Assembly: GCA_002393815.1 (NCBI GenBank)
Contig: DGUB01000073.1
Span: 1 to 16,017, forward strand
Direction of reading: 5' to 3'
Source: Ruminococcus sp. UBA4321
GTDB taxonomy: Bacteria > Bacillota > Clostridia > Oscillospirales > Ruminococcaceae
Length of the DNA stretch: 16,017 bases
Within the stretch, counting starts at the first letter, position 1. Every line of letters starts with the position of its first letter. Of the stretch, positions 1,483 to 16,017 are shown piece after piece. Position numbers and translations under genes: made by a program. The notes beneath the pieces were generated by a model. It was not told the DNA's origin. It did no database searches and saw nothing but the letters and a program-made list of their open reading frames with translations.

Positions 1483-1493
1483 TCTTCTTTATG

Positions 1494-1523: not shown

Positions 1524-1533
1524 GTTCCCGGCA

Positions 1534-1562: not shown

Positions 1563-1591
1563 AATAAAAAACAGAAAGGATTTGAATTCTT

Positions 1592-2362: not shown

Positions 2363-2431
2363 ACCTCTAAAAAATGAGACATATTTTTCCAATAATTAGC
2401 AAAAATTCACAAATTGTTCACAGATAGGTCT

Positions 2432-2460
2432 TTAAAAGTTAACTGAATTTATGCTATAAT
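2432..2460 (+). promoter_or_regulatory. Extended -10 promoter of the TetR-type gene
   Basis: TATAAT at 2455-2460 is preceded by TGC (an extended -10). The -35 at 2432-2437 (TTAAAA, 17-base spacer) is only a partial match. The surrounding intergenic DNA is very AT-rich. Confidence 0.7.
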
Positions 2461-2505
2461 AATATTATAATTTTAAAATCAATTTCAGGAAAGGGAGTGT
2501 ATTTC

Positions 2506-3120: not shown

Positions 3121-3122
3121 CA

Positions 3123-3159
3123 GAAAATGCCCCTGTTACGGGGCATTTTCTTCTTTTTT
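3123..3159 (+). terminator. Terminator between the TetR-type gene and the converging membrane-protein gene
   Basis: An 11-bp stem, GAAAATGCCCC (3123-3133) pairing with GGGGCATTTTC (3140-3150), with a six-base loop followed by TTCTTTTTT. The T-tract serves the plus-strand regulator gene. The stop codon of the minus-strand membrane protein (3136-3138) sits in the loop. Confidence 0.88.
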
Positions 3160-3723
3160 CGGGACGAAGATTCCGGAATCGGTCAGCGTGAAAATCAGAA
3201 CCAGATAAAACAGTGTATAAATCATGCTGACTGCCGGAAATTTCAGATATGCCTGCATGAGAAGCAGTATCAGACAAAAGAAGATACACGCAGTAAAGCG
3301 TTTCTGTTTCCGGACTGTGAAAAGTCCCAGAATTCCCATAAAAATCAGTACCATGCACATCAAAAGGAACATGACGGAAATCATCATCAGCAGAACACTG
3401 CCGACAGCATTCAGCCCCGGCAGAGCCGTGTCCGGTTTGCCGTTTAGTGAAAAAGATTCGTTCCGTGTGGTGAACATCTGCCATCCGAAGTATATCGCCA
3501 GCAGAAATTCTGTGATGCAGTGCGCCTGAAAAATTCGTTTCGTATCCATGCCGAATGCACACATCAGTGACAGAATCAGCATAAAAATCGAAATCATCAG
3601 TGAAAGTACAACATTCTGCACCGCTCCGGAAATCACTGCCACCCGGACGGCATCCGCCAGCTCCAGAAGGCTGAATGCCGTCATCACAATGCCGATTTGT
3701 GTTTGAAATTTTATTTTTTTCAT
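3136..3723 (-). CDS. Integral membrane protein of unknown function
   Basis: I do not recognise the family. The 195-residue product has five or six hydrophobic helices at about residues 10-31, 36-57, 66-82, 105-135 (long enough for one or two passes), 142-161 and 165-182. A short basic N-terminus and a charged C-tail flank them. No catalytic or transport motif is evident. Its ATG overlaps the TGA of the upstream vWA lipoprotein gene in an ATGA arrangement, and AGGAG (plus-strand CTCCT at 3732-3736) lies eight bases before the start within that gene. The two are therefore likely co-transcribed and translationally coupled, which suggests a shared task at the membrane. A longer minus-strand frame (3092-3826) overlaps it but lacks protein-like composition. 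Confidence 0.72.
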   Translation of the reverse strand: MKKIKFQTQIGIVMTAFSLLELADAVRVAVISGAVQNVVLSLMISIFMLILSLMCAFGMDTKRIFQAHCITEFLLAIYFGWQMFTTRNESFSLNGKPDTALPGLNAVGSVLLMMISVMFLLMCMVLIFMGILGLFTVRKQKRFTACIFFCLILLLMQAYLKFPAVSMIYTLFYLVLIFTLTDSGIFVPKKEENAP

Positions 3724-5174
3724 TGTTTGTACTCCTGAATAATTCTGACAATGATATCATGCAGGGATTCGACTTCATAATCGCCGATAATCGGCTCAAG
3801 ATGAGAGTCACCAATACCGGAATCATCCGTCAGAAAGACATAATCCCCGTTTGTGCAGATGGCTAACGCTCTGCCGAACAGTTCCGTTTCTCTCGAACCG
3901 TTGGAAGAGACTACCGGAATCAGATGAATTCCCTTTGCAGAAGCTTCTTCGATAATGGCTTCAAAGTCCGTGCCGTCATGAGGGGGCGCATCATAAATCA
4001 GGAACGCAATCTTGACGGATTCGTCTTTCCAGTCGGGAGAGAATATGGTTTCTTTCAGGACTTCGTAGACGGCTTCCGGCTCGTCTCCTCCGCCGGATGC
4101 AAATTCTTCATTCAATTTGTTTCTGACCGCCTGTACATCGCCTGTGAATCCGGAACAGTTCGTGACATAAACATCTCCCTCATCTTTATAGAAATTCACG
4201 GAATACATGGTATTTTCGTTCCCGGCTTCTTCGGCAATCGCACTGAAATCACTCTGAAGATACAGCATTTCATCCCCCATAGAACCCGTCGTATCAACAA
4301 TGAACATAATCTGTGTATCGTGATAAAGCTTCTGTTCGGCATCGAGCTGAACGGTATAGCTTCTGTCACCCGTGAGTGCGTTGCCCTGTTCGTCCACAGA
4401 AGCGGATTCAATTTCGATTGTCTGTGAAAGTTCTCCCTGTGTGACGGTCAGATTCGCGCCTGTCTTGCCGTTCATCTCAAAGACATAAGCCTGACCGTTC
4501 TTATCTGTGACGGCTCTCCAGATGGTCTGCGCCTCATCATTCAGGACAACTTCCGCATTCGGCAGAGGTGTGCCGCTGTTATCGGTCACAGTCACAGCGA
4601 TTCTCTGCGTGGGGTCAAGTCCGAAACTCGGAAATTCGATAACTCCGGTATTTACCAGATTCGAGAAGAATCCCCAGTTTTCGTGGTCTTTCCATTCTCC
4701 GGCGGTGAGCATTCCGACAGAAGCCTGCACAGCGGGTTCAGGTTCGGGAACGGGTTCCGGCTCGATAATCACATCATCTTCGGCGTAAGCTTCCGGAGCA
4801 ATGGGTTCGCCGTCCGGAGCATCGGCAGTCTTTACGGCGGAAAGTGCAGCTTCTGCGCCTTCGGCAATGGAAGCGGCATCGAAATCAGCAGAATTGAGTA
4901 CATCCCCGGCGGCTTCACCTTCATCAGCGAATCCGCCGGCTTCTTCGGCGAACCCGGCAGCCTCAGGAGCGGCAGCAGCTTCCGGAACAGCGGCGGCTTT
5001 TTCTTCGGCAGGCGCGGCGGCGGCAGAGGAAACATCCCCCTTCACGGCTTCCCTGGCGAACTCCGCAGCAGGAGCGTCGGTAAGGGTATTCGTTTCCATG
5101 CCTGCACCGCATCCGGTATAGGCGAGCATTGTCAGAACTGCGGCAAATGCCATTAACTTATTATATTTTTTCAT
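3720..5174 (-). CDS. Surface lipoprotein with Ala/Glu-rich stalk and von Willebrand factor A domain
   Basis: The 484-residue product starts with a lipoprotein signal; Cys22 in AYTGC is the likely lipidation site, with Tyr at -3 being atypical. Residues about 33-150 are low complexity, rich in Ala, Glu and Pro, ending in an EPEPVPEPEP tract, probably an extended stalk. Residues about 185-260 look like a beta-sandwich of the bacterial Ig or carboxypeptidase-regulatory type (GTPLPNAEVVL, then DKNGQAY). The vWA domain spans about 285-484. Its MIDAS metal site is DTTGS at 294-298, with Thr344 and Asp395 as likely further ligands; GGGDEPEAV at 361-369 is typical of vWA proteins. Such domains bind protein partners through a divalent metal. 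The start is fixed by AGGAGG upstream. I saw no convincing minus-strand promoter in 5175-5300. The partner and role are unknown; the downstream coupled membrane protein is a candidate. Confidence 0.85.
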   Translation of the reverse strand: MKKYNKLMAFAAVLTMLAYTGCGAGMETNTLTDAPAAEFAREAVKGDVSSAAAAPAEEKAAAVPEAAAAPEAAGFAEEAGGFADEGEAAGDVLNSADFDAASIAEGAEAALSAVKTADAPDGEPIAPEAYAEDDVIIEPEPVPEPEPAVQASVGMLTAGEWKDHENWGFFSNLVNTGVIEFPSFGLDPTQRIAVTVTDNSGTPLPNAEVVLNDEAQTIWRAVTDKNGQAYVFEMNGKTGANLTVTQGELSQTIEIESASVDEQGNALTGDRSYTVQLDAEQKLYHDTQIMFIVDTTGSMGDEMLYLQSDFSAIAEEAGNENTMYSVNFYKDEGDVYVTNCSGFTGDVQAVRNKLNEEFASGGGDEPEAVYEVLKETIFSPDWKDESVKIAFLIYDAPPHDGTDFEAIIEEASAKGIHLIPVVSSNGSRETELFGRALAICTNGDYVFLTDDSGIGDSHLEPIIGDYEVESLHDIIVRIIQEYKQ

Positions 5175-5295
5175 GATAAAAATCCTCCTTAAGAATTTGA
5201 TTTGTTTTGAATGGCTTCTGTCTTATATACGGATTTGAAATCTGCTTTTTATGGGAAAATACTGCACAAAGTTTTAGCTTATTTTTTATTTACTA

Positions 5296-5324
5296 TTGAC
5301 AAATTCATAAAAATCTGTTATCAT
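5296..5324 (+). promoter_or_regulatory. Extended -10 promoter of the GH5 gene
   Basis: TTGACA at 5296-5301, 17-base spacer, TATCAT at 5319-5324 preceded by TGT. It faces away from the vWA gene in a 175-base divergent intergenic region. AGAGGAG at 5331-5337 is the ribosome site for the ATG at 5350. Confidence 0.82.
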
Positions 5325-5349
5325 TTTCTCAGAGGAGTGTGATTTTTCT

Positions 5350-6537
5350 ATGCTGAAAAAATTAAGTATCTTATTATCCTGCATGATGCTGATAAGCTTT
5401 GCCGGGTGTTCCGGTCAGAACACAAATTCAGTTAGTCCGGATAATCCGCCGGTTCTCACACAGGAAGCCGGAAAAACGGCATCCGAAACGGCTCTTGATG
5501 CCGTTTACAATATGAAAATCGGCTGGAATCTCGGCGATACGCTTGATGTCTGCGCCGCTGACCGCGACGGCGACGGCAAAGTCAATGAACATCCGGCGGA
5601 CGGCGAACAGGTTGACGAAACCCTCTGGGGCAATGTCATAACAACCCCGGAATTATTTGAGCATCTCAAAGCTGACGGCATTAACGCCGTCAGAATTCCG
5701 GTCACATGGCGCGACCATCTCGGCGATGCGCCCGATTATCAGATAAATCCAGAATGGCTTGCCAGAGTTCACGAAGTTGTCGATTATGCCATCGCACAGG
5801 ATATGTATGTTCTGCTGAATGTCCATCACGACGGCGGCGGCGACCCGCAGTTCGGTGCGTGGATTAGAAATGCTTCTTCCGATTATCAGGGAACTGCCGA
5901 AAAATATACTGTTCTCTGGACGCAGATTGCTGAAAGCTTTGCAGATTATCCGGACAAGCTCATCTTTGAATCCATGAATGAAGTCGGCTTCGACCATATG
6001 GCACAGCCCAGAGCCTACGAAATTTTAAATAACCTGAATCAGCTGTTTGTCAAGACAGTACGGAAATCCAATCCGGACAGAAATCTGTTAATCGCCGGAT
6101 ACTGGACGGATGTCGAACAGACATGCAACAGCTTATTCAAACTTCCGGAAGATACGGAACAAAACAGACTGATTGTCTCTGTCCATTACTATACGCCGTG
6201 GCAGTTCTGCGTCAGCGACCAGCAGAAAACATGGGGCAGTCCCGGAGAAGTCCGCATCATGGAAGCCAATGTCAGAAAACTCAAAGAAAATTTTATCGAT
6301 AACAATATTCCGGTTATTGTCGGCGAATACGGAACGATGAAATCCGCCGACACCGCAAGCCGTGTGTATTTCTGCGAAATGCTCACAAAACGCTGCTTTG
6401 AAGCCGGAATCCCCTGCTATTTCTGGGACAATGGCGAGGAATATGACCGGACTGCCTTCCAGTGGCGCACGCCCGGTCTGATCGAAGCCTTACAGCACGC
6501 TGTCAGCGGTGAGGATTACGAGGTTACAAAATCATGA
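5350..6537 (+). CDS. Lipid-anchored GH5 endoglucanase-type glycoside hydrolase
   Basis: The 395-residue product has a lipoprotein signal with lipobox FAGC (Cys20), a short spacer, then one GH5 TIM barrel from about residue 50. Family marks are IGWNLGDTLD (57-66), VRIPVTW (114-120) with the conserved Arg115, LNVHHDGGG (156-164), the acid/base Glu211 in ESMNEVGF, His279 and Tyr281 in VSVHYYTPW, the nucleophile Glu326 in IVGEYGTM, and Trp359 near the end. GH5 enzymes cleave beta-1,4 glucans or mannans with retention; the exact substrate is uncertain, but the motifs resemble Ruminococcus and Clostridium cellulases. There is no dockerin or carbohydrate-binding module, so it should act at the cell surface on oligosaccharides rather than in a cellulosome. 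An EF-hand-like DRDGDGKVN (71-79) is inserted after the first barrel strand. The last codons overlap the next gene by ATGA. Confidence 0.92.
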   Translation: MLKKLSILLSCMMLISFAGCSGQNTNSVSPDNPPVLTQEAGKTASETALDAVYNMKIGWNLGDTLDVCAADRDGDGKVNEHPADGEQVDETLWGNVITTPELFEHLKADGINAVRIPVTWRDHLGDAPDYQINPEWLARVHEVVDYAIAQDMYVLLNVHHDGGGDPQFGAWIRNASSDYQGTAEKYTVLWTQIAESFADYPDKLIFESMNEVGFDHMAQPRAYEILNNLNQLFVKTVRKSNPDRNLLIAGYWTDVEQTCNSLFKLPEDTEQNRLIVSVHYYTPWQFCVSDQQKTWGSPGEVRIMEANVRKLKENFIDNNIPVIVGEYGTMKSADTASRVYFCEMLTKRCFEAGIPCYFWDNGEEYDRTAFQWRTPGLIEALQHAVSGEDYEVTKS

Positions 6538-7001
6538 ACCGGCAGGAACTGACAGTTTCCGAAATCAGACAGACGAAACGTCCGCTGAATCAATATGAAA
6601 GACCGTTCAAAGCTTTTCGCTTCTATACGGTTATGTTCGGAATTTTTCTTTTTCTGCTTCTGATACATTTTGCGTTCAGAGACGGCATTTCCGGCTGTCT
6701 GGAAGTACTGAAAGCCTTCCCTTTCCTGATTGGAATTTATCTTTTTATCTGGCTTCTGCAATTTCTGGACTGCTGGGACTATCTTCGGTGGTATAACAGA
6801 GCCGTTCGCGAAGGTGAATATTTCGAAGGCGAAATTGTCAGAACTCTGGAAAATCCGGGAAGACGCAGCAGCACTTTTTACGAATATATCATTCAGCTTG
6901 AAAATGGTCAGCTTGTCAGAACGCCGATTTATGACAAGATAGCGGCAAATTCCTGTGATGTATATTTCTACCGGAAAAAATATTATTTCAGATTATATTG
7001 A
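6534..7001 (+). CDS. Small membrane protein, two helices plus a beta-rich cytoplasmic-type domain, unknown function
   Basis: I do not recognise a named family. The 155-residue product has a basic N-terminal segment, hydrophobic helices at about 31-48 and 61-79, and a soluble tail of about 70 residues that alternates like a small beta-barrel (GEIVRTLEN, YEYIIQLENGQLVRT, CDVYFYRKKYYF). That pattern resembles DUF3592-like tails, where a short beta-domain follows a helical hairpin, but the match is from memory only. Its ATG overlaps the TGA of the GH5 gene, so translation is probably coupled to the glucanase. No separate promoter is visible. No catalytic residues are evident. Confidence 0.72.
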   Translation: MNRQELTVSEIRQTKRPLNQYERPFKAFRFYTVMFGIFLFLLLIHFAFRDGISGCLEVLKAFPFLIGIYLFIWLLQFLDCWDYLRWYNRAVREGEYFEGEIVRTLENPGRRSSTFYEYIIQLENGQLVRTPIYDKIAANSCDVYFYRKKYYFRLY

Positions 7002-7022
7002 ATCTGATAAAAAATATCATGC

Positions 7023-7051
7023 TTTACATTTCCGGAAAAATATGTTATACT
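7023..7051 (+). promoter_or_regulatory. Extended -10 promoter of the tgt operon
   Basis: TTTACA at 7023-7028, 17-base spacer, TATACT at 7046-7051 preceded by TGT. AGGAGAAG at 7073-7080 is the ribosome site for tgt. No terminator is visible between this promoter and the end of the previous gene, so read-through from the GH5 unit is possible. Confidence 0.8.
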
Positions 7052-7087
7052 TAAAGATATTATTATCAATACAGGAGAAGTTATCTT

Positions 7088-8233
7088 ATGGGAATTTATC
7101 AGCTAATCAAGACAGAAAACAAAGCAAGGCGCGGAACGGTCACAACCGTACACGGCACGTTTCAGACTCCGTGCTTTATGAACGTCGGCACATCGGCGGC
7201 AATCAAGGGGGGCATTTCCTCTCCGGAACTCGCTGGTTTGAAATGTCAGGTCGAACTCTGCAATACCTATCACCTGCATTTAAGACCCGGTGACAAGATT
7301 ATCCGTCAGATGGGCGGTCTGCACAAATTCATGAACTGGAAACGCCCGATTCTTACCGACAGCGGCGGATTTCAGGTATTTTCTTTAGCAAAGCTGCGTA
7401 AGATTAAGGAAGAAGGGGTTTATTTCCAGTCGCATCTGGATGGTTCGAGGTTATTCATTTCGCCGGAAGTCAGTATGCAGATTCAGTCGAATCTGGCTTC
7501 TACCATCGCGATGGCGTTTGATGAATGTGTCGAAAATCCTGCTCCTTATGACTATTCGGCGAAATCCTGCGAACGCACAACGCGCTGGCTGATTCGCTGC
7601 AAAGAAGAAATGCAGAGATTAAACAGCCTGCCGGAAACGATTAACAAGAATCAGTTATTATTCGGCATCAATCAGGGCTGTACGTTCGAGGAACTCAGAA
7701 TTGAACATATGCAGCAGATTACAGAACTCGACCTTGACGGCTATGCCGTTGGCGGTCTTGCCGTCGGCGAACCGACAGAGGAGATGTACAGAATCCTGGA
7801 TGCTGTCGTGCCGTACATGCCGTCTGACAAGCCGAGGTATTTAATGGGTGTCGGAACACCGTCGAATATTATCGAAGCCGTCGCAAGAGGAATTGACATG
7901 TTCGACTGTGTCATGCCGACCAGAAACGCCCGGCACGGTACTATTTTTACATGGGCGGGAATGCGCCATATGAAGAATCAGACCTATCAGACAGACCCGC
8001 GCCCGATGGATGAAGAATGCGGCTGTCCTGCCTGCCGGAACTTTTCAAGAGCGTATGTGCGCCATCTGTTCAAGGCGAATGAAATGCTTGCCGGACGGCT
8101 GACTGTCATTCATAATCTGTATTTCTACAATACACTGACGGAAAAAATCCGTGATGCGCTCGATAACGGCACATTTGAGGAATTCCGCGCCGAATATTCC
8201 AAAAAACTGGCAAAAAAAGCCCCTGATGATTAA
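7088..8233 (+). CDS. tgt: tRNA-guanine transglycosylase (queuosine pathway)
   Basis: The 381-residue product matches bacterial TGT (EC 2.4.2.29), which swaps guanine 34 for preQ1 (or queuine in salvage types) in GUN-anticodon tRNAs. Asp91 in LTDSGGFQ is the general acid/base position. Asp273 in MFDCVMPTRNARHG is the catalytic nucleophile position, corresponding to Asp280 of the Zymomonas enzyme. The zinc site is Cys311, Cys313, Cys316 and His342, with the same spacing as in that enzyme. The length is normal and the start is set by a good AGGAG site. It heads an operon with mntP-like and GNAT genes 33 and 19 bases apart; these have no obvious link to tRNA modification. No queA or preQ1 synthesis gene is in the window. 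Confidence 0.96.
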   Translation: MGIYQLIKTENKARRGTVTTVHGTFQTPCFMNVGTSAAIKGGISSPELAGLKCQVELCNTYHLHLRPGDKIIRQMGGLHKFMNWKRPILTDSGGFQVFSLAKLRKIKEEGVYFQSHLDGSRLFISPEVSMQIQSNLASTIAMAFDECVENPAPYDYSAKSCERTTRWLIRCKEEMQRLNSLPETINKNQLLFGINQGCTFEELRIEHMQQITELDLDGYAVGGLAVGEPTEEMYRILDAVVPYMPSDKPRYLMGVGTPSNIIEAVARGIDMFDCVMPTRNARHGTIFTWAGMRHMKNQTYQTDPRPMDEECGCPACRNFSRAYVRHLFKANEMLAGRLTVIHNLYFYNTLTEKIRDALDNGTFEEFRAEYSKKLAKKAPDD

Positions 8234-8266
8234 TTAAAAATTTTAATCAGAGAGGAAGCCTGCTGA

Positions 8267-8836
8267 ATGAATTTTTTTGAACTTCTGCTGACTGCGGTCG
8301 GCTTGTCGATGGATGCGTTTGCGGTATCAGTCACGGACGGATTATGCTGTACCAATCTGAAAAAACAGCAAATCTTTCAGATTGGCATCTGTTTCGGAAT
8401 CTTTCAGGGCGTGATGCCTCTGACGGGCTTCTTTCTGGGGAAAGCATTTGAAACCTATATTACTGCGGCTGACCACTATGTCGCCCTGATTTTACTGGGC
8501 TATATCGGCATCCGGATGATTCTGGATGCCGTCCGGGAAGCAAAGCAGAAGGAAACAGAACATTATGAACTCAGCATGAAAACTTTGCTTCTGCAAGGAA
8601 TCGCGACCAGTATCGATGCGCTGGCTGTCGGGGTCAGTTTCGCGGCTCTGGCGAATATCAACATCTACTGCGCCGTTTCGGAAATCGCCTTGATTACCTG
8701 TCTTTTCTCGCTGACGGGTGTGCGGTTCGGCAGAAAATTCGGTGCAAAGCTCGGTAGCCGCGCACTCCTGACAGGCGGTGTGATTCTGGTCTGTCTGGGA
8801 ATTAAAATTTTTATCGAACACATGTTTTTTTCATAA
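8267..8836 (+). CDS. mntP: MntP-type manganese efflux membrane protein
   Basis: The 189-residue product is a compact six-helix membrane protein with the internal two-fold repeat of the MntP (YebN, DUF204) family. The paired acidic signatures are both present: SMDAFAVS with Asp16 and TSIDALAVGVSFA with Asp117, as is the GxxQGVMPLTG segment (45-54). In E. coli the protein exports Mn2+ and protects from manganese excess; the same role is inferred. AGAGGAAG precedes the start. In many bacteria a Mn-sensing yybP-ykoY riboswitch precedes mntP, but only 33 bases separate it from tgt here, so it must depend on the tgt promoter unless control is internal. Confidence 0.9.
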   Translation: MNFFELLLTAVGLSMDAFAVSVTDGLCCTNLKKQQIFQIGICFGIFQGVMPLTGFFLGKAFETYITAADHYVALILLGYIGIRMILDAVREAKQKETEHYELSMKTLLLQGIATSIDALAVGVSFAALANINIYCAVSEIALITCLFSLTGVRFGRKFGAKLGSRALLTGGVILVCLGIKIFIEHMFFS

Positions 8837-8855
8837 TCAGAAAGGGTGTATTTTT

Positions 8856-9344
8856 ATGAATCTTCAAATCCGCACCGCAAAGCCGGAAGATTTGGAACAG
8901 CTGACTGTGATTGAATCCGTCTGCTTTCCACCGGAAGAAGCCGCCGATTCTGAAAAAATCAGAAGCAGAATCGAACAGTTTCCGGAGCATTTCTTCGTTC
9001 TGACGGAGAATCAGCAGATTGCCGGATTTATCAACGGGCTTGTTTACGGTTCTCCGGTGCTGATTGACGAAATGTTTGACGACGCTTCTCTGCATGACGA
9101 AAACGGCAGCTATCAGATGATTCTGAGCCTTGCTGTTTCGCCGGAATTTCAGCATAAAGGCTATGGAACGAAACTGCTGCATCATCTGATTGCTTCCGCC
9201 AAATCCCAGAACCGGAAAGGCATCACACTCACCTGCAAGGAACAGCTTGTTCCCTTCTATACGGCATCCGGATTCCGGAATCAGGGAAAATCGGATTCGG
9301 TTCACGGCGGCTTTGAGTGGTACGAAATGCGGATTCAGTTTTAA
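8856..9344 (+). CDS. GNAT-family N-acetyltransferase
   Basis: The 162-residue product has the GNAT fold. The acetyl-CoA-binding motif A is LAVSPEFQHKGYGTKLL (92-108), with the pyrophosphate loop Q-H-K-G-Y-G at 99-104. A C-terminal FYTASGF segment (134-140) is typical of motif B. The overall pattern, with two acidic loops and a late aromatic WYEM, resembles the small arylalkylamine-acetyltransferase-like GNATs, so a small amine or polyamine is a possible acceptor. The true substrate cannot be read from sequence. AAAGGGTG at 8841-8848 precedes the ATG, 19 bases after mntP. It is the last gene of the tgt operon before a strong hairpin. Confidence 0.88.
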   Translation: MNLQIRTAKPEDLEQLTVIESVCFPPEEAADSEKIRSRIEQFPEHFFVLTENQQIAGFINGLVYGSPVLIDEMFDDASLHDENGSYQMILSLAVSPEFQHKGYGTKLLHHLIASAKSQNRKGITLTCKEQLVPFYTASGFRNQGKSDSVHGGFEWYEMRIQF

Positions 9345-9345
9345 G

Positions 9346-9383
9346 ACAAAAATCCGGCTGGAATCTGAATTTCCAGCCGGATT
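9346..9383. terminator. Bidirectional terminator between the GNAT and flavodoxin genes
   Basis: A perfect 13-bp stem, AATCCGGCTGGAA (9351-9363) with TTCCAGCCGGATT (9371-9383), and a seven-base loop. On the minus strand it runs into TTTTT, so it best fits the flavodoxin transcript. On the plus strand the tail is ATTCTCTT, weaker but probably enough to end the tgt operon. Confidence 0.85.
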
Positions 9384-9413
9384 CTCTTGGAGATGGAAGT
9401 TTTGAAATTTCGA

Positions 9414-9824
9414 TTATTTTGCGAGTGCTTCACCGAGTGCCTTGCAAGCGGCAAGTGCATCATCGTCGGGGGCTTCGTTTGCTGTTACGGAATCTGCAAC
9501 CAAATTAGCACCGGCTGCCTTGGCATCTTCTTCCCAGTTGCGCATCCATTCGCCGTCACCCCAGCCGTAAGAACCGAACAGGGCAATTTTTTTGCCGTTC
9601 AGGTTAGCTTTGACTGCATCCCACATGGGCTGGAATTCATCTTCTTCGAGGACTTCTGCGCCCATTGCCGGACAGCCGAATGCAACTGCATCGAATTCAT
9701 TTGCCTTGTCAGCAGAAAAATCAGCGGCGGTGATGAGTTCTGCACCTGCGGCTTCTGCAACGGCATTTGCCATAGCTTCAGTATTTCCTGTCTGGCTCCA
9801 ATAAACAACTGCGACTTTACTCAT
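9414..9824 (-). CDS. Flavodoxin (short-chain, Clostridium type)
   Basis: A 136-residue FMN-binding electron carrier of the cytoplasm that can replace ferredoxin when iron is short. The phosphate-binding loop is SQTGNTE at 10-16, the first flavin loop is GCPAMGAE (50-57) and the second is GSYGWGDGEWM (84-94). These are the three FMN-contacting loops of Clostridium beijerinckii and Megasphaera flavodoxins, and the length matches. I chose the ATG at 9824 because AAAGGAT lies ten bases upstream; a longer frame starting at 9836 would put its ATG directly on that ribosome site. Its acidic surface fits a partner of oxidoreductases. It is monocistronic and diverges from the solute-binding-protein gene. 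Confidence 0.95.
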   Translation of the reverse strand: MSKVAVVYWSQTGNTEAMANAVAEAAGAELITAADFSADKANEFDAVAFGCPAMGAEVLEEDEFQPMWDAVKANLNGKKIALFGSYGWGDGEWMRNWEEDAKAAGANLVADSVTANEAPDDDALAACKALGEALAK

Positions 9825-9886
9825 GATAAAAATCATCCTTTCAAGATTTAAAATTTTTAGTTAGCTTTCGCTTATTAACATTACCC

Positions 9887-9915
9887 ATTATAACTTTTTT
9901 TATGATTTCTATCCA
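9887..9915 (-). promoter_or_regulatory. Promoter of the flavodoxin gene
   Basis: Read on the minus strand, a perfect TATAAT (plus-strand 9887-9892) follows TGGATA (9910-9915), a partial -35, by 17 bases. The region is AT-rich. I saw no clear Fur-like palindrome. Confidence 0.6.
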
Positions 9916-9966
9916 CTCCAAACAGAAAGAAAAACAATCCGTTCGGACATTTTTCAAGAGATAGCA

Positions 9967-9995
9967 TTGACTTTATACAAAAAATATGCTATAAT
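9967..9995 (+). promoter_or_regulatory. Extended -10 promoter of the solute-binding-protein gene
   Basis: TTGACT at 9967-9972, 17-base spacer, TATAAT at 9990-9995 preceded by TGC. The ribosome site of the gene is weak by contrast (GGAAAG at 10020-10025, 14 bases before the ATG). Confidence 0.85.
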
Positions 9996-10039
9996 GAAAA
10001 ACGGATTTACTATTTTTTTGGAAAGCCGTGTGATAAATT

Positions 10040-10858
10040 ATGAAAAAACTGAACAATTATTTCCTTGCGGCGGCAGCACTGTGTTTTCTGACCGGATTTT
10101 CCGGCTGTGCCGGAAAGCAGGACACTTCCGAAATAGAACACGAACTGCCGGATACTGGAATTCATGCCATTTCTGACCTGAACGGAAAAAGAATCGGCAC
10201 ACAAATCGGCACAACCGGCGTGATTTACGCGGAAGATATTCCCGATGCACAGCTGCAAAACTTTACCAAGCCAAGTGCCGCCCTCAAAGCCCTGAAAGAA
10301 GATAAGATTGACGCTGTCATCCTCGACAGCGAACCCGCAAAAACACTGACAGCAGAAGATGACTCTTTCCGGATTCTCTATGAAGCACTTGTCGAAGAAG
10401 AATATTCCATCGCCTATGCCAAAGACAATGCCGAACTCGGTCAGAAAATTGATGCCGCGCTTTATACGCTCAAGAAAGACGGCACTCTGGACAAGATTAC
10501 AAGCCACTGGATTGGCGAAGATGCCGACCAGGTTTCCTATCAGCCGGATAAGAAAGTCACCAGAGAAGGTACGCTCATTATGGCAACGAATGCCGAATTT
10601 CCGCCCTATGAAAGCAAAGATGCTTCCGGACAGATTGTCGGGATTGATGTCGATATGATGAATGCTGTCTGTGACAAGCTCGGCATGAATCTGGAAATCA
10701 AGGATATGCCCTTCGATTCCGTGCTTGCTTCCGTCCAGACGGGCAAGGCGGATGTCGGTGCCGCCGGCATCTCCGTCACGCCGGAACGTCAGGAAGAAGT
10801 GAATTTCTCCCAGAGTTATGCGGTTTCCAAATTAGTCGTTGTTGTCCGGAACGAGTAA
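10040..10858 (+). CDS. Amino-acid-type ABC solute-binding lipoprotein with permuted halves
   Basis: The 272-residue product starts with a lipoprotein signal (SGC, Cys23). It has the segments of a family-3 (amino-acid, PAAT-type) solute-binding protein, but in the wrong order. Residues about 43-160 are the usual second half: ISDLNGKRIGTQIGTTG of lobe 2, AVILDSEPA with Asp96, then LKKDGTLDKITSHWIG that normally ends the protein. After a short linker (161-173), residues 174-271 are the usual first half: REGTLIMATNAEFPPYE, GIDVDMMNAV, MPFDSVLASVQTGKADV and ISVTPER with Arg250, ending at VVVVR where the chain normally crosses the hinge. Both ligand-contacting elements are kept, so one full two-lobed fold could form. 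It has its own promoter and a hairpin behind it. No permease or ATPase gene is in the window, so it is an orphan here. Confidence 0.88.
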   Translation: MKKLNNYFLAAAALCFLTGFSGCAGKQDTSEIEHELPDTGIHAISDLNGKRIGTQIGTTGVIYAEDIPDAQLQNFTKPSAALKALKEDKIDAVILDSEPAKTLTAEDDSFRILYEALVEEEYSIAYAKDNAELGQKIDAALYTLKKDGTLDKITSHWIGEDADQVSYQPDKKVTREGTLIMATNAEFPPYESKDASGQIVGIDVDMMNAVCDKLGMNLEIKDMPFDSVLASVQTGKADVGAAGISVTPERQEEVNFSQSYAVSKLVVVVRNE

Positions 10859-10881
10859 AAAAATCAAATCTGTATTTCTTC

Positions 10882-10917
10882 AATACCCTGTGAATGCCCT
10901 GTGCTTCACAGGGTATT
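10882..10917 (+). terminator. Hairpin terminator of the solute-binding-protein gene
   Basis: A 13-bp stem, AATACCCTGTGAA (10882-10894) with TTCACAGGGTATT (10905-10917), and a ten-base loop, 24 bases after the stop. The following CTTGTC is a poor T-tract, so termination may be incomplete. Confidence 0.72.
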
Positions 10918-10987
10918 CTTGTCAATTCTGTTGAAAAAATTCATGAAAACCAGAAATATATTTTCTGTTTCCCATACTAAAAAATCC

Positions 10988-11016
10988 TTGACAAAATTGT
11001 ATTTTTATGTTATACT
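10988..11016 (+). promoter_or_regulatory. Strong extended -10 promoter of the Tp47-like surface protein gene
   Basis: Perfect TTGACA at 10988-10993, 17-base spacer, TATACT at 11011-11016 preceded by TGT. One of the best promoters in the window, predicting a transcript start near 11022-11024 and a leader of about 87 bases. Confidence 0.9.
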
Positions 11017-11020
11017 TCTA

Positions 11021-11095
11021 TTTGTATTCAAAAATCAGTAAGCGAAAACTTACTCCTGCATAAAAAATGCAGAAATACAAAACTTTTTAGAAGTT
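11021..11095 (+). promoter_or_regulatory. Structured 5' leader, predicted three-way junction RNA
   Basis: TTTGTATT (11021-11028) pairs with AATACAAA (11074-11081) to close a loop that holds two hairpins: AGTAAG/CTTACT (11037-11042 and 11049-11054) and CTGCAT/ATGCAG (11056-11061 and 11067-11072), separated by single bases. A further short hairpin AACTT/AAGTT (11081-11085 and 11091-11095) abuts the ribosome site AGGAG (11096-11100). The outer stem begins almost at the predicted transcript start. It matches no riboswitch I know. Protection of the mRNA 5' end is one reading. Confidence 0.5.
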
Positions 11096-11109
11096 AGGAG
11101 AATTGAATC

Positions 11110-12672
11110 ATGAAAAATTTCAAGACAATTGCAGTTCTGACCGCAAGTCTGGCACTGGCTGTCAGTGCCGTTCCGTTTGCCGCTTCTGCCGCAGATGCGG
11201 ATTATATTTACGGCACAATGGATATTCCTTATGCCGATTTCTACAAGGCTGAACTCGCCGGCAGCAACAATGCCTATGAAGTAGATGCTGTTTCTTCCGC
11301 TACCGCTACCAAATGGGCAAAGAACGGCGAAGGCGAACTCTTTGAAGGTTCTTATCACAGCGAAGCCGCCGAAGACGGCTCCGGACAGATTCTTGGTGTT
11401 ACCTATCCGGTTGCTATCACACAGGCTGACCTCGATGCCCTCGCAGATAACTACAATTTCACCGCTCTGGAAGAAGTTCCGGCTGCTTACAAAACTGTCA
11501 CCGTGACAGACGGCACAGCAGAATTTTCTGCTGTCAACGACGCAGAACCCCAGACTTTTGAAGCTGAAATCAACCTCAGCACAGAAACCCCGTGGGGTGA
11601 CTATGTGATTGCCGTCAATACTGCTCCGGAAGATTTAGGGGCTATCTATGGCGCAGTTCTCAAAACTGCCGAAGGTCATGCCTATGCAATGCGCCATGAA
11701 CAGAATATCTGGAGAGGTCAGTTTGCATGGTCTTCCGGTATCAAGACAACAGAACCTCACGGCAATACACTGGATTTTGAAGACTATCAGTCACTGATGG
11801 GCGAAACCATTAATCAGATTGTCTATATCGCAAAATCCGGTTACTATACAGTCAATACAGAAACTTATGTTCCCGTCAAGTTTGAAAATACGCTGACAGC
11901 CGAAAACGGCAAATCCGGAAGCGGTTCTGTCAACTGGACACAGACCGGATTCCCGGAAGATTATCAGCTGACAGGCTCCGTGGCAGAGAATTTCTCCGTC
12001 GGTGAAGACGGCGTTATCGCCTATACTGATGCCGTACCGGGTTCTTACACGCTGACCGTATCTGACGAAAACGGAAAATATGCTTCTGTCACAGCAAGCT
12101 TTGTTCTCAGCACCGAAGATTTACCCGTTGCCTATGATAAAGAAAACAACAAGCTTGTTGCCGCCGAAGGCTTTACTGACGAAGATGCCGCTAACTTCCT
12201 CAAGAATCTGGCGAACGTCAATGTCAATGAAAAAGATTATTCCGCAACCGGAAAAGGCGCAGTCGCTATTATTGATAAAGACGGCGTTATCAATTTTGAA
12301 GCCGCTTCCGGCAGAGGCGATACCGCAACACCCGTATTCGACGGCAGCGGAAATTATACGATTACTGTGACATCAACAGGCTACGAAACGCCCCTGACTA
12401 TCACCCTGACAGCAGAAGAACCGACAGAAACGGAAACCACTGCTTCTGAAACAACAACCTCTACAACAACATCCACAACCGCAAAAACAACAGCGAAAAC
12501 CACTACAACTGCAAAGACAACCACAACTGCTGCCAAGACAGCTTCTTCCACCACTTCTTCCAGCACTGGTTCTTCCGAAAGCCCGAAAACCGGGGATACT
12601 GCTGCTGCAATTCCGATGGCTGTTCTAGCTGCTGCCGGACTGACCGCATTCGCAGCCAAGAAAAGAAAGTAA
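11110..12672 (+). CDS. Cell-wall-anchored Tp47-like surface protein with a flavinylation-like motif
   Basis: The 520-residue product has a signal peptide (cut near AASA-27), a folded region of about 240 residues, beta-sandwich repeats, a Thr/Ala/Lys linker (about 437-490) and a sorting signal: SPKTG (491-495), hydrophobic helix, KKRK tail. Ser replaces Leu of the classic LPxTG. The folded region (IYGTMDIPYADFYKAEL, AYEVDAVSSAT, then RHEQNIWRGQFAWSSGI) resembles from memory the Treponema Tp47 penicillin-binding antigen family found in many Firmicutes; its function there is unclear. VDAVSSAT (58-65) resembles the D-x-x-S-G-A-T site modified by ApbE, but the usual Gly is Ser. Residues 337-435 include a bacterial-repeat-like module. 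It precedes a heme/FMN membrane protein and ApbE, suggesting a wall-side redox or acceptor role, which is inference. Strong promoter and leader suggest high expression. Confidence 0.8.
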   Translation: MKNFKTIAVLTASLALAVSAVPFAASAADADYIYGTMDIPYADFYKAELAGSNNAYEVDAVSSATATKWAKNGEGELFEGSYHSEAAEDGSGQILGVTYPVAITQADLDALADNYNFTALEEVPAAYKTVTVTDGTAEFSAVNDAEPQTFEAEINLSTETPWGDYVIAVNTAPEDLGAIYGAVLKTAEGHAYAMRHEQNIWRGQFAWSSGIKTTEPHGNTLDFEDYQSLMGETINQIVYIAKSGYYTVNTETYVPVKFENTLTAENGKSGSGSVNWTQTGFPEDYQLTGSVAENFSVGEDGVIAYTDAVPGSYTLTVSDENGKYASVTASFVLSTEDLPVAYDKENNKLVAAEGFTDEDAANFLKNLANVNVNEKDYSATGKGAVAIIDKDGVINFEAASGRGDTATPVFDGSGNYTITVTSTGYETPLTITLTAEEPTETETTASETTTSTTTSTTAKTTAKTTTTAKTTTTAAKTASSTTSSSTGSSESPKTGDTAAAIPMAVLAAAGLTAFAAKKRK

Positions 12673-12713
12673 TCTTCCTTAACTATTATAGTTTCCTTTC
12701 AAAAGAATATGTG

Positions 12714-12753
12714 CATCATCCGCCCTGTCCTGTCACTGACAGACAGGGTGATG
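12714..12753 (+). terminator. Hairpin after the Tp47-like gene, possible terminator or attenuator
   Basis: CCCTGTC (12723-12729) pairs with GACAGGG (12742-12748), and CATCA/TGATG extend it with a small bulge. There is no T-tract, so termination is doubtful; it may stabilise the upstream mRNA 3' end while allowing read-through into the next gene. Confidence 0.45.
12730..12742. promoter_or_regulatory. Perfect palindrome CTGTCA-C-TGACAG, possible operator
   Basis: A 13-base perfect inverted repeat lies upstream of a TATACT (12757-12762) that could be a -10. The overlapping CTGACA would be a -35 with a short 15-base spacer. A regulator bound here would block that promoter. The same bases form the hairpin above, so the symmetry may be RNA-level only. 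Confidence 0.3.
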
Positions 12754-12794
12754 GTGTATACTGACAAAATTTTACATACAGGAGTTATTGAATT

Positions 12795-14267
12795 ATGTTA
12801 TTTTTAATCGCGATTATTGTCGCCGGATTGTTTTCCTGGCTCTGTGCCGATTCCCTCAGAAAACATCCCGTGCCTTTCTACATTGCCGGAACTGTGCTTT
12901 CTGTCGTGATGATTATTCTGAATCAGAAGCATGTACAGACAACGGAATTCACAAATACTTATATTATCGGATTATTCAACCGCGGCGCACTGGCGGCGGC
13001 ACTCTGGTGCGTTGTCGCATGGATTGGCGCACTGCCCGACGGTGCAAAGGAAATCCGGAAACGCCTGCTCCCCGCAAGAGGTGAACTTTCTATTTTTGCG
13101 GCACTGATTACGCTTTCTCATGCGGTCGTTTACGGCATCAGCTATGTCAAAAGGCTGTTCAGCGGCAGACCCGGCGATACAGATTTTATTCTGACCTGCA
13201 TCATCTGTCTGGTTCTCATGCTGATTATGATTCCTCTGACAGTGATTTCCTTCAAAGCAATCCGGAAAAAAATCAAGGGCAAAACCTGGAAGAATCTCCA
13301 GCGAGCCGCCTATGTCTTCTATGCGCTGATTTATCTGCATATCATGGTGATTCTGATTCCCCGTGCGCGTCAGGGCAGAGAGGGCGTTATGCTGAGTATT
13401 CTGGTCTATACTGTCGTATTCGTCGGCTATGCCGTGTTCCGCATCCGGAAAGAAATCATCCGTAAAAAGAAGCCCCAGAACACTGCCGCTATGAACGGCG
13501 TTTGTGCCGCTGTCTTTGTTTTCATCACCAGTATGATGGGGATTTCTTCCAGAGCAACCGAAGCCCCGGCTGTAACCGCCGAGAAAACAACTCCGGCAGA
13601 AACTTCTGTTTCCACAGCTGTTCCCGTTACAGAAACAGAAACAGTTTCCGTTTCCGAAACCGAACTGCTGACAGAATCCGCATCCGAAACCGAAACCATC
13701 GCCGAAACAGAATCCGTTCCAGAAGAATCTGCTCCGGGAACTTCCGAATCAGAATCAGAAAGCGTTTCCGAATCGCAGACCGCCTCTGAAACTGAAAAGC
13801 CTTCCGAAACCTCTGCTGTTTCCGAAACGTCTGTGACGGAAACTGCCGTACAGGAAACCGCTTCTGCTGAAACACCCGAAGAACCTGTTCTGCAGGAAGA
13901 AGCTCCCGTTCAGGAAGAACAGCCCGTTCAGCAGGAAGAAAATCCCGTTCAGGAAGAAGCCCCCGCTCCCGAACCGGAGCCGGAACCCGTCAATACTATC
14001 TATAACGACGGTACTTACAGCGTGACGAAATTCGGCTATGACAGCGATGTGTATATTACTGTCACTATCGAGAATGATGTGATTGTTGATGTGACTGCTT
14101 CCTGCGAGGAAAGCGACATGTATTATTTCGATGTTGCCTATCCGGTTCTGAAAAGCGCGATTCTCGCTTCACAAAGCCCCGATGTCGATGCGGTTTCCGG
14201 TTCGACATACAGTTCCGATGCGATTCGCGACGGCGTCCGCGAAGCCCTCAGTCAAGCCAGAAAATAA
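12795..14267 (+). CDS. Ferric-reductase-like membrane protein fused to an extracytosolic FMN-binding domain
   Basis: The 490-residue product has about eight hydrophobic helices (near 1-18, 27-44, 61-79, 98-117, 132-153, 170-190, 197-214, 233-250). Helices 4-6 resemble the heme-binding core of ferric reductase/MsrQ-type proteins: His109 in LSHAVVYG and His182 in IYLHIMVI could ligate one heme b. The family's LHR before the latter is LQR (168-170), so a second heme site is probably missing. Residues 255-400 are a low-complexity Ser/Thr/Glu/Pro linker long enough to reach into the wall. Residues about 401-490 are an FMN-binding domain (NDGTYSVTKFG start) with VDAVSGST (464-471), the motif on which ApbE links FMN to the Thr (Thr471). 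It should carry electrons from the membrane through heme to outside FMN. AGGAG at 12780-12784 fixes the start; ApbE is next. Confidence 0.88.
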   Translation: MLFLIAIIVAGLFSWLCADSLRKHPVPFYIAGTVLSVVMIILNQKHVQTTEFTNTYIIGLFNRGALAAALWCVVAWIGALPDGAKEIRKRLLPARGELSIFAALITLSHAVVYGISYVKRLFSGRPGDTDFILTCIICLVLMLIMIPLTVISFKAIRKKIKGKTWKNLQRAAYVFYALIYLHIMVILIPRARQGREGVMLSILVYTVVFVGYAVFRIRKEIIRKKKPQNTAAMNGVCAAVFVFITSMMGISSRATEAPAVTAEKTTPAETSVSTAVPVTETETVSVSETELLTESASETETIAETESVPEESAPGTSESESESVSESQTASETEKPSETSAVSETSVTETAVQETASAETPEEPVLQEEAPVQEEQPVQQEENPVQEEAPAPEPEPEPVNTIYNDGTYSVTKFGYDSDVYITVTIENDVIVDVTASCEESDMYYFDVAYPVLKSAILASQSPDVDAVSGSTYSSDAIRDGVREALSQARK

Positions 14268-14270
14268 AAC

Positions 14271-14299
14271 TTGCAAAATAGTTCCGGAAATGCTATAAT
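14271..14299 (+). promoter_or_regulatory. Extended -10 promoter of the apbE operon
   Basis: TTGCAA at 14271-14276 begins four bases after the previous stop codon; 17-base spacer; TATAAT at 14294-14299 preceded by TGC. AAGGAG at 14318-14323 serves apbE. Confidence 0.85.
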
Positions 14300-14331
14300 A
14301 GATACATGACAAAAATAAAGGAGTTTTTTTC

Positions 14332-15396
14332 ATGAAATATCAAATTCTTCCGCCGGTGCTGGCAGTCTGTCTGCTGTGCGGATGTTCGGCAGAACCGGCA
14401 GCTGTTCCGGAAAGTGCTGAAATTTCAGCTGAAACGGTTTCTGCTCCGGCGGTCAGCGACCTGTTCGCGATGGATACTTACATGAATCTGAAAGTCTGGT
14501 GTTCTGACGGCGATTCCGTTCTGAAAGAAGCCGCCGTTCTGATTTCCGGTCTGGAAGATACGCTTTCCGTGACAAATCCAGAAAGTGATACTAGCCGTAT
14601 CAATCAAAATGCCGGTACACCCGTAGAAGTTTCAGAAGATACTGTTAATCTGGTGCAGGAAGCTATAAAAATCGGTGCGGAAAGTCATGGCGCACTGGAT
14701 GTGACTGTTTATCCAGTACTGAAAGAATGGGGCTTTACAACGCAGGAATATCAGATTCCAGATAATCAGACAATACAGAATCTTCTGGATAATGTAGATT
14801 ATACGAAGATTCAGCTTGATGGAAATGCTGTGACAATTCCGGAACATGTACAGATAGATTTCGGCTCACTTGCCAAAGGCTATACTAGTGATAAGCTGAT
14901 GCAGTTATTTCATGAACACGGTGCAGAATCAGCAATTGTCAGTCTTGGGGGAAATGTGCAGGCACTCGGCAGAAAAACAGACGGCAGTTTATGGAAAGTC
15001 GGTATTGTGAATCCCTTCTCCCCTGCTGACAATATGTGTATTCTGGAGATTGAGAATCAGGCAGTTATCACTTCCGGCAATTATGAACGCTATTTCACCG
15101 GAGAAGACGGGAAAAACTACTGGCATATTATAGACCCGAAAGACGGCTTCCCGGCAGATAACGGGCTTGTTTCCGTGACAGTTATCGGAGAAAGCGGACT
15201 GCTGTGTGATGCGCTTTCGACTGCCCTGTTCGCTGAAGGAACAGAACAGGCAATAACACATTATCAGAATTCTGATGATTTCGAGATGATTCTTGTCACC
15301 GAAGACGGAAAGATTCTGCTTTCCGAAGCATTGCAGGATAATTTTCAGAATCTCAGTCAGATGCCTGTTGAGGTGATTTCTCATGACGGAGTCTAA
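14332..15396 (+). CDS. apbE: FAD:protein FMN transferase (ApbE), lipoprotein
   Basis: The 354-residue product attaches FMN from FAD to Thr or Ser of target proteins outside the membrane (EC 2.7.1.180). A lipoprotein signal (LCGC, Cys18) and a short spacer are followed by the ApbE fold: FAMDTYMNLKVW (45-56), GALDVTVYPVLKEWGF (120-135), QIDFGSLAKGYTSD (174-187), SLGGNVQ (204-210), WKVGIVNP (221-228), ITSGNYERYF (246-255), HIIDPKDG (265-272) and LCDALSTALF (291-300). Asp293 and Thr297 fit the Mg2+ site of characterised ApbE. The FMN-binding domain encoded just upstream is the obvious substrate. It has its own promoter and overlaps the next gene by 14 bases, so the three genes ApbE, NusG-II-like and Gx form one operon. 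Confidence 0.96.
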   Translation: MKYQILPPVLAVCLLCGCSAEPAAVPESAEISAETVSAPAVSDLFAMDTYMNLKVWCSDGDSVLKEAAVLISGLEDTLSVTNPESDTSRINQNAGTPVEVSEDTVNLVQEAIKIGAESHGALDVTVYPVLKEWGFTTQEYQIPDNQTIQNLLDNVDYTKIQLDGNAVTIPEHVQIDFGSLAKGYTSDKLMQLFHEHGAESAIVSLGGNVQALGRKTDGSLWKVGIVNPFSPADNMCILEIENQAVITSGNYERYFTGEDGKNYWHIIDPKDGFPADNGLVSVTVIGESGLLCDALSTALFAEGTEQAITHYQNSDDFEMILVTEDGKILLSEALQDNFQNLSQMPVEVISHDGV

Positions 15397-15757
15397 GAAA
15401 AACAAGCAGGTGAACGTGATTCTGCTTATCACAGTATTGGTTATTGTTCTCTGTATCATATGGACGATAGTTGCATTCCGGAAGTCTGCTGGACAAAGAG
15501 TGCTGATAATTCAGGAAAATCAAGTCATTCAGGAAATTGATTTAGCATCTGCCGAAAATCAGGAAATTAAAATTTCATCTGCGGACGGCGGCTATAATCT
15601 GATTCAGATTCAAAATCATGAAATCTGCATTTCAGAAGCAGATTGTCCTGACCAGACCTGTGTAAAAACCGGAATTCTCCGTTCTGAAAGTCTGCCGATA
15701 GTCTGTCTGCCACACAAGCTGATTATCCGCTTTGCCGAAGAAGGGGAAACATCATGA
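15383..15757 (+). CDS. Membrane-anchored NusG domain II-type protein
   Basis: The 124-residue product has one N-terminal membrane helix (about 11-32) and a small extracytosolic beta domain of the NusG-II type: the RVLIIQENQVIQEIDL strand pair, then CISEADCPDQTCVKTG and SLPIVCLPHKLIIRF. Cysteines 82, 88, 93 and 108 are in the positions typical of these proteins (C-P-D-x-x-C-V-x-x-G and V-C-L-P). Its biochemical role is unknown, but the family recurs next to ApbE, FMN-binding proteins and Gx transporters. The Cys pairs could make a disulfide or a redox site. GAGGTG at 15370-15375 precedes the ATG, which lies inside the end of apbE. The end overlaps the next gene by ATGA. Confidence 0.85.
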   Translation: MTESKKNKQVNVILLITVLVIVLCIIWTIVAFRKSAGQRVLIIQENQVIQEIDLASAENQEIKISSADGGYNLIQIQNHEICISEADCPDQTCVKTGILRSESLPIVCLPHKLIIRFAEEGETS

Positions 15758-16017
15758 AACTGAAAAAATTAACGGAACTGGCACTGCTGACCGCACTTGC
15801 GCTGATTATCTTTGTAATAGAACTTCACTTTCCGGATATTCTGCCCATACCGGGTGTAAAACTGGGACTTGCAAATATTATTACAGTTTATGCCATTTTT
15901 CAGTATCAGCCATCAGAAACAGCAATGCTTGTTGCCTGTCGTGTCATTCTGGGGGCGATATGCAGCGGAAATATGTCAGCATTGTTATACAGCGCATCAG
16001 GAGCGGCAATGTGTCTG
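15754..16017 (+). CDS. Gx-family transporter (heptaprenyl diphosphate synthase component I-like), 5' part
   Basis: The ATG overlaps the TGA of the NusG-II gene. 88 codons are visible before the window ends. The start MKLKKLTELALLTALALIIFV, then IPGVKLGLANI (35-45) and an ACRVILGAICSGN segment, is the signature of the Gx/Hpre_diP_synt_I family: small membrane proteins resembling ECF S-components. Despite the synthase label they are probably transporters; the substrate is not known. In flavinylation loci they usually follow NusG-II, and a flavin or quinone-related substrate has been suggested. Partial only because the window ends. Confidence 0.85.
   Translation, partial: MKLKKLTELALLTALALIIFVIELHFPDILPIPGVKLGLANIITVYAIFQYQPSETAMLVACRVILGAICSGNMSALLYSASGAAMCL

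Follow-up and report, generated by a model that had tools for sequence, protein, structure and literature searches.

Certain flavinylated systems built around an MsrQ-like heme protein look like assimilatory iron reductases, a role already proposed for some of them in passages of PMC8238504. As described there, such systems unite an MsrQ-like heme protein, an FMN_bind (flavin mononucleotide-binding) domain and the flavin transferase ApbE in one cluster; the heme protein has two heme sites, and the clusters are broad in Actinobacteria and infrequent elsewhere. Here we analyze a likewise composed locus from the Clostridia, found on contig DGUB01000073.1 of Ruminococcus sp. UBA4321. The window is the whole stretch examined, positions 1-16017 of that contig (G000:C102), which belongs to a 1.78 Mb draft genome that is 72 % complete. 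At its right end, five genes encode a surface protein with the fold of the Treponema pallidum lipoprotein Tp47, a heme membrane protein ending in an FMN_bind domain (the heme-FMN protein), ApbE, a NusG domain II protein, and an EetB-type subunit predicted to export flavin adenine dinucleotide (FAD) (Table 1). Unlike the systems of PMC8238504, the heme and FMN domains are fused here, an NAD-binding domain, frequent though dispensable in those systems, is absent (PF00175 is not among the Pfam matches), one candidate histidine pair is seen instead of two heme sites, and the partners are flavodoxin, FeoB, and the Tp47-fold wall protein. We propose, with about as much confidence as doubt, that the cluster builds a flavin-based, assimilatory reductase of the cell wall that would reduce ferric iron for uptake by FeoB.

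Two further systems invite comparison. The extracellular electron transfer (EET) locus of Listeria (EetB, FmnB, PplA, Ndh2; treated in parts of PMC9973259) has ApbE (as FmnB) and the FAD exporter EetB in common with ours; in that account Listeria EetB, of the PF07456 family, is an FAD-binding energy-coupling factor substrate subunit (ECF-S) required for flavinylation. In contrast to that locus, the window proteins scanned include neither Ndh2 nor PplA, no sign of demethylmenaquinone synthesis was seen, and the membrane step falls to a heme protein. The DUF4405 flavinylation-associated cytochromes and the ferrosome protein FezC (PMC11334425) are alike in being flavinylation-linked cytochromes near iron-storage genes, but the heme protein family differs, ours being MsrQ-like and paired with a surface Tp47-fold protein; no fez genes were found among the window proteins scanned. 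As far as our searches go, the new elements are a near-constant Tp47-fold surface partner, its fusions to FMN_bind-type domains, an ApbE-like site of variant sequence, and a clostridial setting with flavodoxin and Feo genes. Together they outline a candidate electron route to the surface for anaerobic, apparently quinone-free gut bacteria, tied to iron acquisition.

The Tp47-fold and heme-FMN genes form a conserved pair

All five open frames reported in an earlier note on this DNA are present on the plus strand, the last one running off the contig end, with its PF07456 match resting on 88 aa. The frames had been described as overlapping, which holds for ApbE and NusG (14 nt) and for NusG and EetB (4 nt); a gap of 64 nt separates the heme-FMN gene from ApbE. 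We compared gene order across 80 related loci, fetched by homology to the Tp47-fold gene and kept out of 244. The heme-FMN gene lies immediately 3' of the Tp47-fold gene in 78 of the 79 testable loci (L066 ends too early for the test). The exception is L074, from G004; there, as in G021, a Tp47-fold gene without a heme-FMN neighbor has ApbE, EetB, and flavodoxin nearby. The pair is therefore neither scattered nor unconserved, and the earlier note's description of a flavinylation-linked, extracytosolic electron-transfer set is supported. All five genes recur in identical order in Pseudobutyrivibrio sp. YE44 (G498, L191), a member of another family, and G532, also from outside our group, has the pair. 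Ruminococcus flavefaciens 007c (L143) has the pair in two tandem copies.

Across the genus (38 genomes), the heme-FMN gene occurs in 17 of the 20 genomes that hold the Tp47-fold gene and in 0 of the 18 that do not. The Tp47-fold count excludes 7 of 27 matching genomes in which the C-terminal tail alone matched, and the heme-FMN count excludes 5 of 22 that matched by the FMN domain or a low-complexity stretch alone. In one excluded genome, G010, a contig starts or stops at an FMN domain that has ApbE and NusG behind it, which may be a cut heme-FMN gene. Draft genomes and shared ancestry limit association tests of this kind: neither the link between ApbE and the Tp47-fold gene (16/20 genomes with it versus 10/18 without, p 0.16) nor the avoidance of Rnf by Tp47-fold genomes (p 0.09) is significant. 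Rnf was scored as present at E under 1e-50, which kept 13 of the 20 genomes that gave a match. The Tp47-fold family is patchy at the level of the class, where 6 of 391 sampled genomes, our own counted, gave a match (E up to 1e-8).

ApbE adjoins the pair in 37 of the 80 loci and is missing from the flanks of 26, the other 17 contigs being too short. A whole-genome search of 14 genomes of the fetched loci, picked mostly for having no ApbE adjoining the pair, found ApbE somewhere in 13. At the ApbE loci of those genomes (14 of 17 matches), NusG and EetB are present too in 13, and L159 has FMN_bind domains instead. Our own incomplete genome gave a single ApbE match, the window gene. ApbE is unlikely to be present solely for RnfG, as no PF02508 match was found in our genome or in G001, G004, G009, G011, and G015.

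Tp47-fold and FMN_bind-type domains (the latter with DA[KR]TGAT) are fused on one polypeptide in G570 (two copies) and G421 (one copy), at loci L185, L186, and L188; the FMN_bind-type scores of the three fusions are 24.4 bits, above the cut-off of 22, and 17.1 and 16.4 bits. G438 has a Tp47-fold domain without an FMN_bind-type domain.

The heme-FMN protein has one candidate heme site and a canonical flavinylation motif

The membrane part of the heme-FMN protein matches Ferric_reduct (PF01794) at 27.0 bits, just below the cut-off of 28, and the same family is precomputed for many, not all, of its listed homologues. Two histidines, His109 and His182, are candidate heme ligands; both fall in predicted hydrophobic segments, and judging from the protein sequence the pair would be enough for one b-heme. 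In the C-terminal domain, the DAVSGST target motif singled out by the earlier note is present at residues 465-471, with Asp465 and Thr471 invariant in 24/24 homologues.

Iron genes recur beside the unit in relatives and point to a probable surface ferric reductase

The electron donor and acceptor had been left open, no obvious Ndh2 or PplA homologue having been seen. That absence stands for the window proteins scanned; the donor is less open, since a flavodoxin gene lies on the minus strand 1.3 kb upstream of the Tp47-fold gene, beyond the coordinates given in the earlier note. Flavodoxin homologues occur in the flanks of 39 of the 80 loci. Of these, 26 sit immediately upstream in the same orientation, 10 upstream in the opposite orientation, and 3 elsewhere. 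Another 32 loci have none, and a further 9 have less than 1.5 kb upstream and show none. FeoB is present in 29 of the 80 loci and DUF3793 in 26, while 11 have DUF6110 and 12 have a P-type ATPase that matches the query. These counts come from phmmer (E up to 1e-10), with the ATPase accepted only at 500 bits or more and three weaker matches dropped; Pfam served to verify the four query proteins as well as the ATPase and DUF6110 proteins of L113. DUF6110 and the ATPase are probably fezA/fezB-like.

The expected number of FeoB genes in the 80 loci is 0.75, estimated from 45 copies in about 63 Mb of 20 genomes, and a Poisson figure for the enrichment overstates it because the loci are related. Clustering of the Tp47-fold protein at 70 % identity gives 34 clusters, of which 9 have FeoB or the DUF6110/ATPase pair, in several orientations. 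R. flavefaciens ATCC 19208 (L132) shows the order FeoB, DUF3793, flavodoxin, Tp47-fold, heme-FMN, DUF6110, ATPase, and in G532 FeoB adjoins the Tp47-fold/heme-FMN pair. In twelve loci, including several of those closest to the window, flavodoxin occurs but neither FeoB nor the DUF6110/ATPase pair does; five have the reverse. The recurrence of flavodoxin, FeoB, DUF3793, and DUF6110 with the P-type ATPase beside the unit in relatives points to iron. Parts of two published accounts describe how such genes respond to iron: under low iron, Clostridioides difficile increases flavodoxin and has more abundant FeoB1 protein (PMC6311696), and in Faecalibacterium excess ferrous iron represses feoB, and a flavodoxin gene rose along with the feo operon (PMC10781979). 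A flavodoxin gene nearby can thus reflect shared regulation and not donation.

From domains, motifs, the conserved pairing, and neighboring genes, all read at the level of sequence and fold, we infer a direction of electron flow, a flavodoxin donor, an iron acceptor, and any flavin on the Tp47-fold protein. Reduced cytosolic flavodoxin would pass electrons to the single b-heme (His109/His182) of the MsrQ-like membrane protein, and the heme would pass them to the covalent FMN on the outer domain of the same protein. From there they may reach the wall-anchored Tp47-fold protein, which would carry or deliver them to ferric iron in the wall, and the resulting ferrous iron would be taken up by FeoB. 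EetB would export the FAD that ApbE uses to attach FMN.

Several observations weigh against a ferric reductase. FeoB is missing from the flanks of the loci closest to the window (L066-L074, L088); it lies about 11 kb off on the same contig in G015, and on a different contig in our own genome. Of the 33 loci whose flanks extend 7 kb either way, 13 have neither flavodoxin nor an iron gene. ApbE was not found in 4 of the 20 genus genomes with the Tp47-fold gene, nor in 1 of the 14 genomes of fetched loci, mostly drafts in both cases. Upstream Fur boxes are not enriched over simple shuffles; window-wide there are 5 weak matches versus 1.3 expected, none of them 5' of the five genes and one spanning the start of the flavodoxin gene. 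No iron-binding site was identified. Finally, flavodoxin is an iron-starvation gene, so that its nearness may mean co-regulation instead of electron donation.

The surface protein resembles Tp47 by fold and carries an ApbE-site-like motif

The earlier note called the first gene product wall anchored and Tp47-like. Its sorting signal matches the Ruminococcus model NF033846 at 28.5 bits (cut-off 23.5), supporting the anchor, in which it differs from the T. pallidum lipoprotein. The Tp47 likeness stands by fold and not by Pfam. The predicted model matches the structure of T. pallidum Tp47 (PDB 1o75) at 18 % identity; in Foldseek, Tp47 came first after realignment and first with the N-terminal model alone, while with the whole model Ig- and cadherin-type chains were on top and Tp47 was absent from the 50 rows. 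A sequence search against 1o75 with the protein, four profiles, and one distant relative gave no match at E up to 10, and the window protein matches neither of the PBP-Tp47 families (PF14889/PF14888). Among distant relatives PF14889 is the commonest match (15/29 at E up to 1), with 0.0027 as the best E; a PF14889 search matched 0 of 147 genomes of the order, but the controls likewise gave 0, so that this result carries no information. Of the best 120 of 470 Pseudobutyrivibrio-type relatives, 113 have a stretch resembling a lipobox. In the homologues P0103 and P0108 a C-terminal dockerin replaces the wall-sorting signal; in these, the Tp47-fold protein may be cellulosome mounted.

Overlooked in the earlier note was a flavinylation-like motif, DAVSSAT, near the N terminus of this protein. 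The ApbE target consensus is D-x-x-[ST]-G-A-[ST], and with Ala in place of its Gly about half of the flavinylation is reported to remain, according to sections of PMC12052999, which mention no change to Ser. DAVSSAT departs from the consensus at the Gly position only. DA[VFIM][ST]SAT is present in 120/120 Tp47-fold homologues (the best 120 of 635), 119 of them picked up by one pattern and P0113 separately, and in a distant branch D-x-x-x-S-x-T is found in 119/120 (the best 120 of 470), the remaining one, P0298, being without its N terminus. Of the 82 Tp47-fold frames in these loci, 81 carry the motif, and the one without it is the C-terminal piece of a split gene; in the fusions of L185, L186, and L188 it reads DAVTSST. 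By comparison, 715 other genes of the 80 loci (232,409 aa) have no instance of D..[ST]SA[ST] and 3 instances of the canonical D..[ST]GA[ST]. The tally of the motif in homologues represents one inherited site and not many independent events.

The likelier explanation, which we would favor to a modest degree, is that DAVSSAT is merely structural, and that a flavin-free Tp47-fold protein binds substrate or docks onto the heme-FMN protein. This would be compatible with a ferric reductase and opposes just a flavinylated Tp47-fold protein. In all 239 readable listed homologues the Gly position is Ser, never Gly; many nearby residues are just as invariant; and the resemblance to FMN_bind is confined to the 15-residue motif. 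On the other side, these 239 homologues all keep the Asp and the Thr, the variation at motif positions 2-4 is much like that of ApbE sites, and Ser and Gly variants interchange at one orthologous site of a second flavin cluster (below). A substitution of the canonical Gly is also seen in P0130, a homologue of the heme-FMN protein, which reads DSVSEST. Domain homology between the Tp47-fold N-terminal part and FMN_bind was considered and is unsupported, as just the motif aligns (probability 26 %); a fold search with that part had no FMN_bind structure among its 50 rows, a result compatible with kinship.

We therefore regard it as possible, but less likely than not, that the Tp47-fold protein carries a flavin at its DAVSSAT-type site. 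Similarly speculative is the wider possibility that Tp47-fold proteins make up a new class of surface proteins, either flavinylated by ApbE or acting as partners of flavin, with D-x-x-x-S-x-T as a variant site, and that in gut Clostridia they work with the heme-FMN protein and flavodoxin as a surface iron reductase that needs no quinone. If D-x-x-x-S-x-T sites are flavinylated, the motif used in searching for ApbE substrates is too narrow. Among the open-licence papers listed, no title or abstract links Tp47 to flavinylation; PMC5956850 mentions Tp47 and flavin a single time each. To our knowledge, the physiological function of Tp47 is unsettled. The fold now gains a genomic context, beside FMN-binding domains and in some Clostridia fused to them, and this context opens the function of a well-known spirochete lipoprotein to tests in harmless relatives. 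If our proposal is true, fold kinship would extend a surface flavin/iron-reductase role to Tp47 as a testable answer.

A second flavin cluster is found in our own genome (G000:C88; L003, L163) and in 18 other genomes of the genus (L164-L181). It comprises an FMN_bind lipoprotein, a small anchored protein without a Pfam match, and a cytochrome-like membrane protein (18/19). The lipoprotein has D[AS][IV]SGAT in 19/19, and at one site of the small protein SSAS occurs in 15/19 and canonical SGAT in 4/19, the leading Asp being Glu in one of the 15. This interchange is an independent hint that the Ser variant may serve as a flavinylation site. In our own genome an ABC transporter precedes the cluster, judged by eye.

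Electron disposal, heme capture, and repair are less probable roles

The earlier note had read the locus as a means of disposing of fermentation electrons, in the fashion of Listeria EET, onto an acceptor outside the cell. ApbE and EetB are part types shared with the Listeria set, a cellulolytic fermenter has excess reductant, our genome gave no Rnf/Nqr match, and relatives hold other secreted FMN_bind proteins; one of these, L059 (G017:C222), has two FMN_bind domains followed by a part that is fumarate-reductase-like by eye, a possible respiratory reductase. We nevertheless consider this purpose unlikely. A UbiA-family prenyltransferase was not found in our genome and was found in only 3 of 38 genus genomes (1 of the 12 best), while 14/14 controls were positive; electrons are therefore unlikely to travel by menaquinone as in Listeria, and the analogy is not supported as an account of the route. 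The lack of Ndh2 and PplA among the scanned proteins of the window (no genome-wide search for Ndh2 was made) weighs in the same direction, and the neighbors in relatives are iron genes, which speaks against electron disposal as the purpose.

Still less probable, in our estimation, is that the surface protein captures heme or hemoproteins and that the flavin-heme pair reduces or strips heme iron. It draws on PF07550, named after the hemoglobin-interacting domain of Shr, which scores above its cut-off in the window protein and matches 23 of 26 aligned Tp47-fold homologues at E up to 10, and on the wall anchor and iron neighbors. However, PF07550 is missing or weak in Pseudobutyrivibrio-type relatives (4/29 at E up to 1), of which L191 keeps the heme-FMN gene alongside, and hemoglobin is presumably scarce in plant-fiber guts. 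An MsrPQ-like repair reductase, with the heme protein supplying surface methionine sulfoxide or disulfide repair, is very improbable, as the 22.2 bits that the heme domain scores on the MsrQ model are far under its cut-off of 130 and no MsrP-type enzyme was found among the window proteins scanned.

Other features of the window and related loci

The earlier description of the organism as fiber degrading is backed by two window genes, one for a GH5 cellulase and one for a dockerin protein, from which we conclude that it degrades plant fiber. The solute-binding protein upstream of the unit has no transporter partner among the neighbors scanned. The promoter-like site before the Tp47-fold gene is weak taken alone, as the region has 13 such sites versus 9.3 expected. 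No tRNA or Rfam match was found in the window, and no relatives were found in a viral collection.

Table 1. Features of the 16,017-nucleotide window, in order of position
Feature	Position	Strand	Detail
Dockerin protein with ricin-type lectin repeats	1-1482		
GH5 cellulase lipoprotein	5350-6537		
Flavodoxin, proposed cytosolic electron donor	9414-9836	-	TIGR01753, 133.3 bits (cut-off 123)
Solute-binding protein, 272 aa	10040-10858		SBP_bac_3 matches two stretches; best covers first part of profile only
Sigma-70-like promoter, TTGACA-17-TATACT	10988-11016	+	Pattern scan, 11/12 matches; upstream of Tp47-fold gene
Tp47-fold, sortase-anchored surface protein, 520 aa	11110-12672	+	
DAVSSAT, ApbE-site-like motif	11284-11304	+	Canonical D-x-x-[ST]-G-A-[ST] with Gly to Ser
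Shr-like hemoglobin-interacting domain in Tp47-fold protein	12136-12390	+	PF07550, 24.5 bits (cut-off 22.3)
NPXTG-type sorting signal (SPKTG)	12580-12669	+	NF033846, residues 491-520
MsrQ/ferric-reductase-like heme membrane protein fused to C-terminal FMN_bind, 490 aa	12795-14267	+	
His109, candidate heme ligand	13119-13121	+	Invariant in 24/24 aligned homologues
His182, candidate heme ligand	13338-13340	+	Invariant in 24/24 aligned homologues
FMN_bind domain	14034-14252	+	PF04205, 40.6 bits (cut-off 22)
DAVSGST, canonical flavinylation motif	14187-14207	+	Thr471, expected FMN site
Possible second promoter, before apbE	14271-14299	+	Pattern scan, 10/12 matches
ApbE, FAD:protein FMN transferase lipoprotein	14332-15396	+	ApbE model, 280.7 bits (cut-off 25.6)
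NusG domain II membrane protein	15383-15757	+	PF07009 (NusG_II), 97.1 bits (cut-off 29.6)
EetB-type ECF substrate subunit, predicted FAD exporter	15754-16017 (contig end)	+	PF07456, 72.8 bits (cut-off 30)

At the related locus L068, the gene following EetB lies on the opposite strand. Further FMN_bind proteins include very long surface-type frames with FMN_bind at the start, of 1521 aa in L058 (G001:C53) and 1296 aa in L052 (G021:C313). A secreted protein of a relative (L057:385-1788) combines leucine-rich repeats, FMN_bind, and a weak dockerin-like stretch below cut-off.

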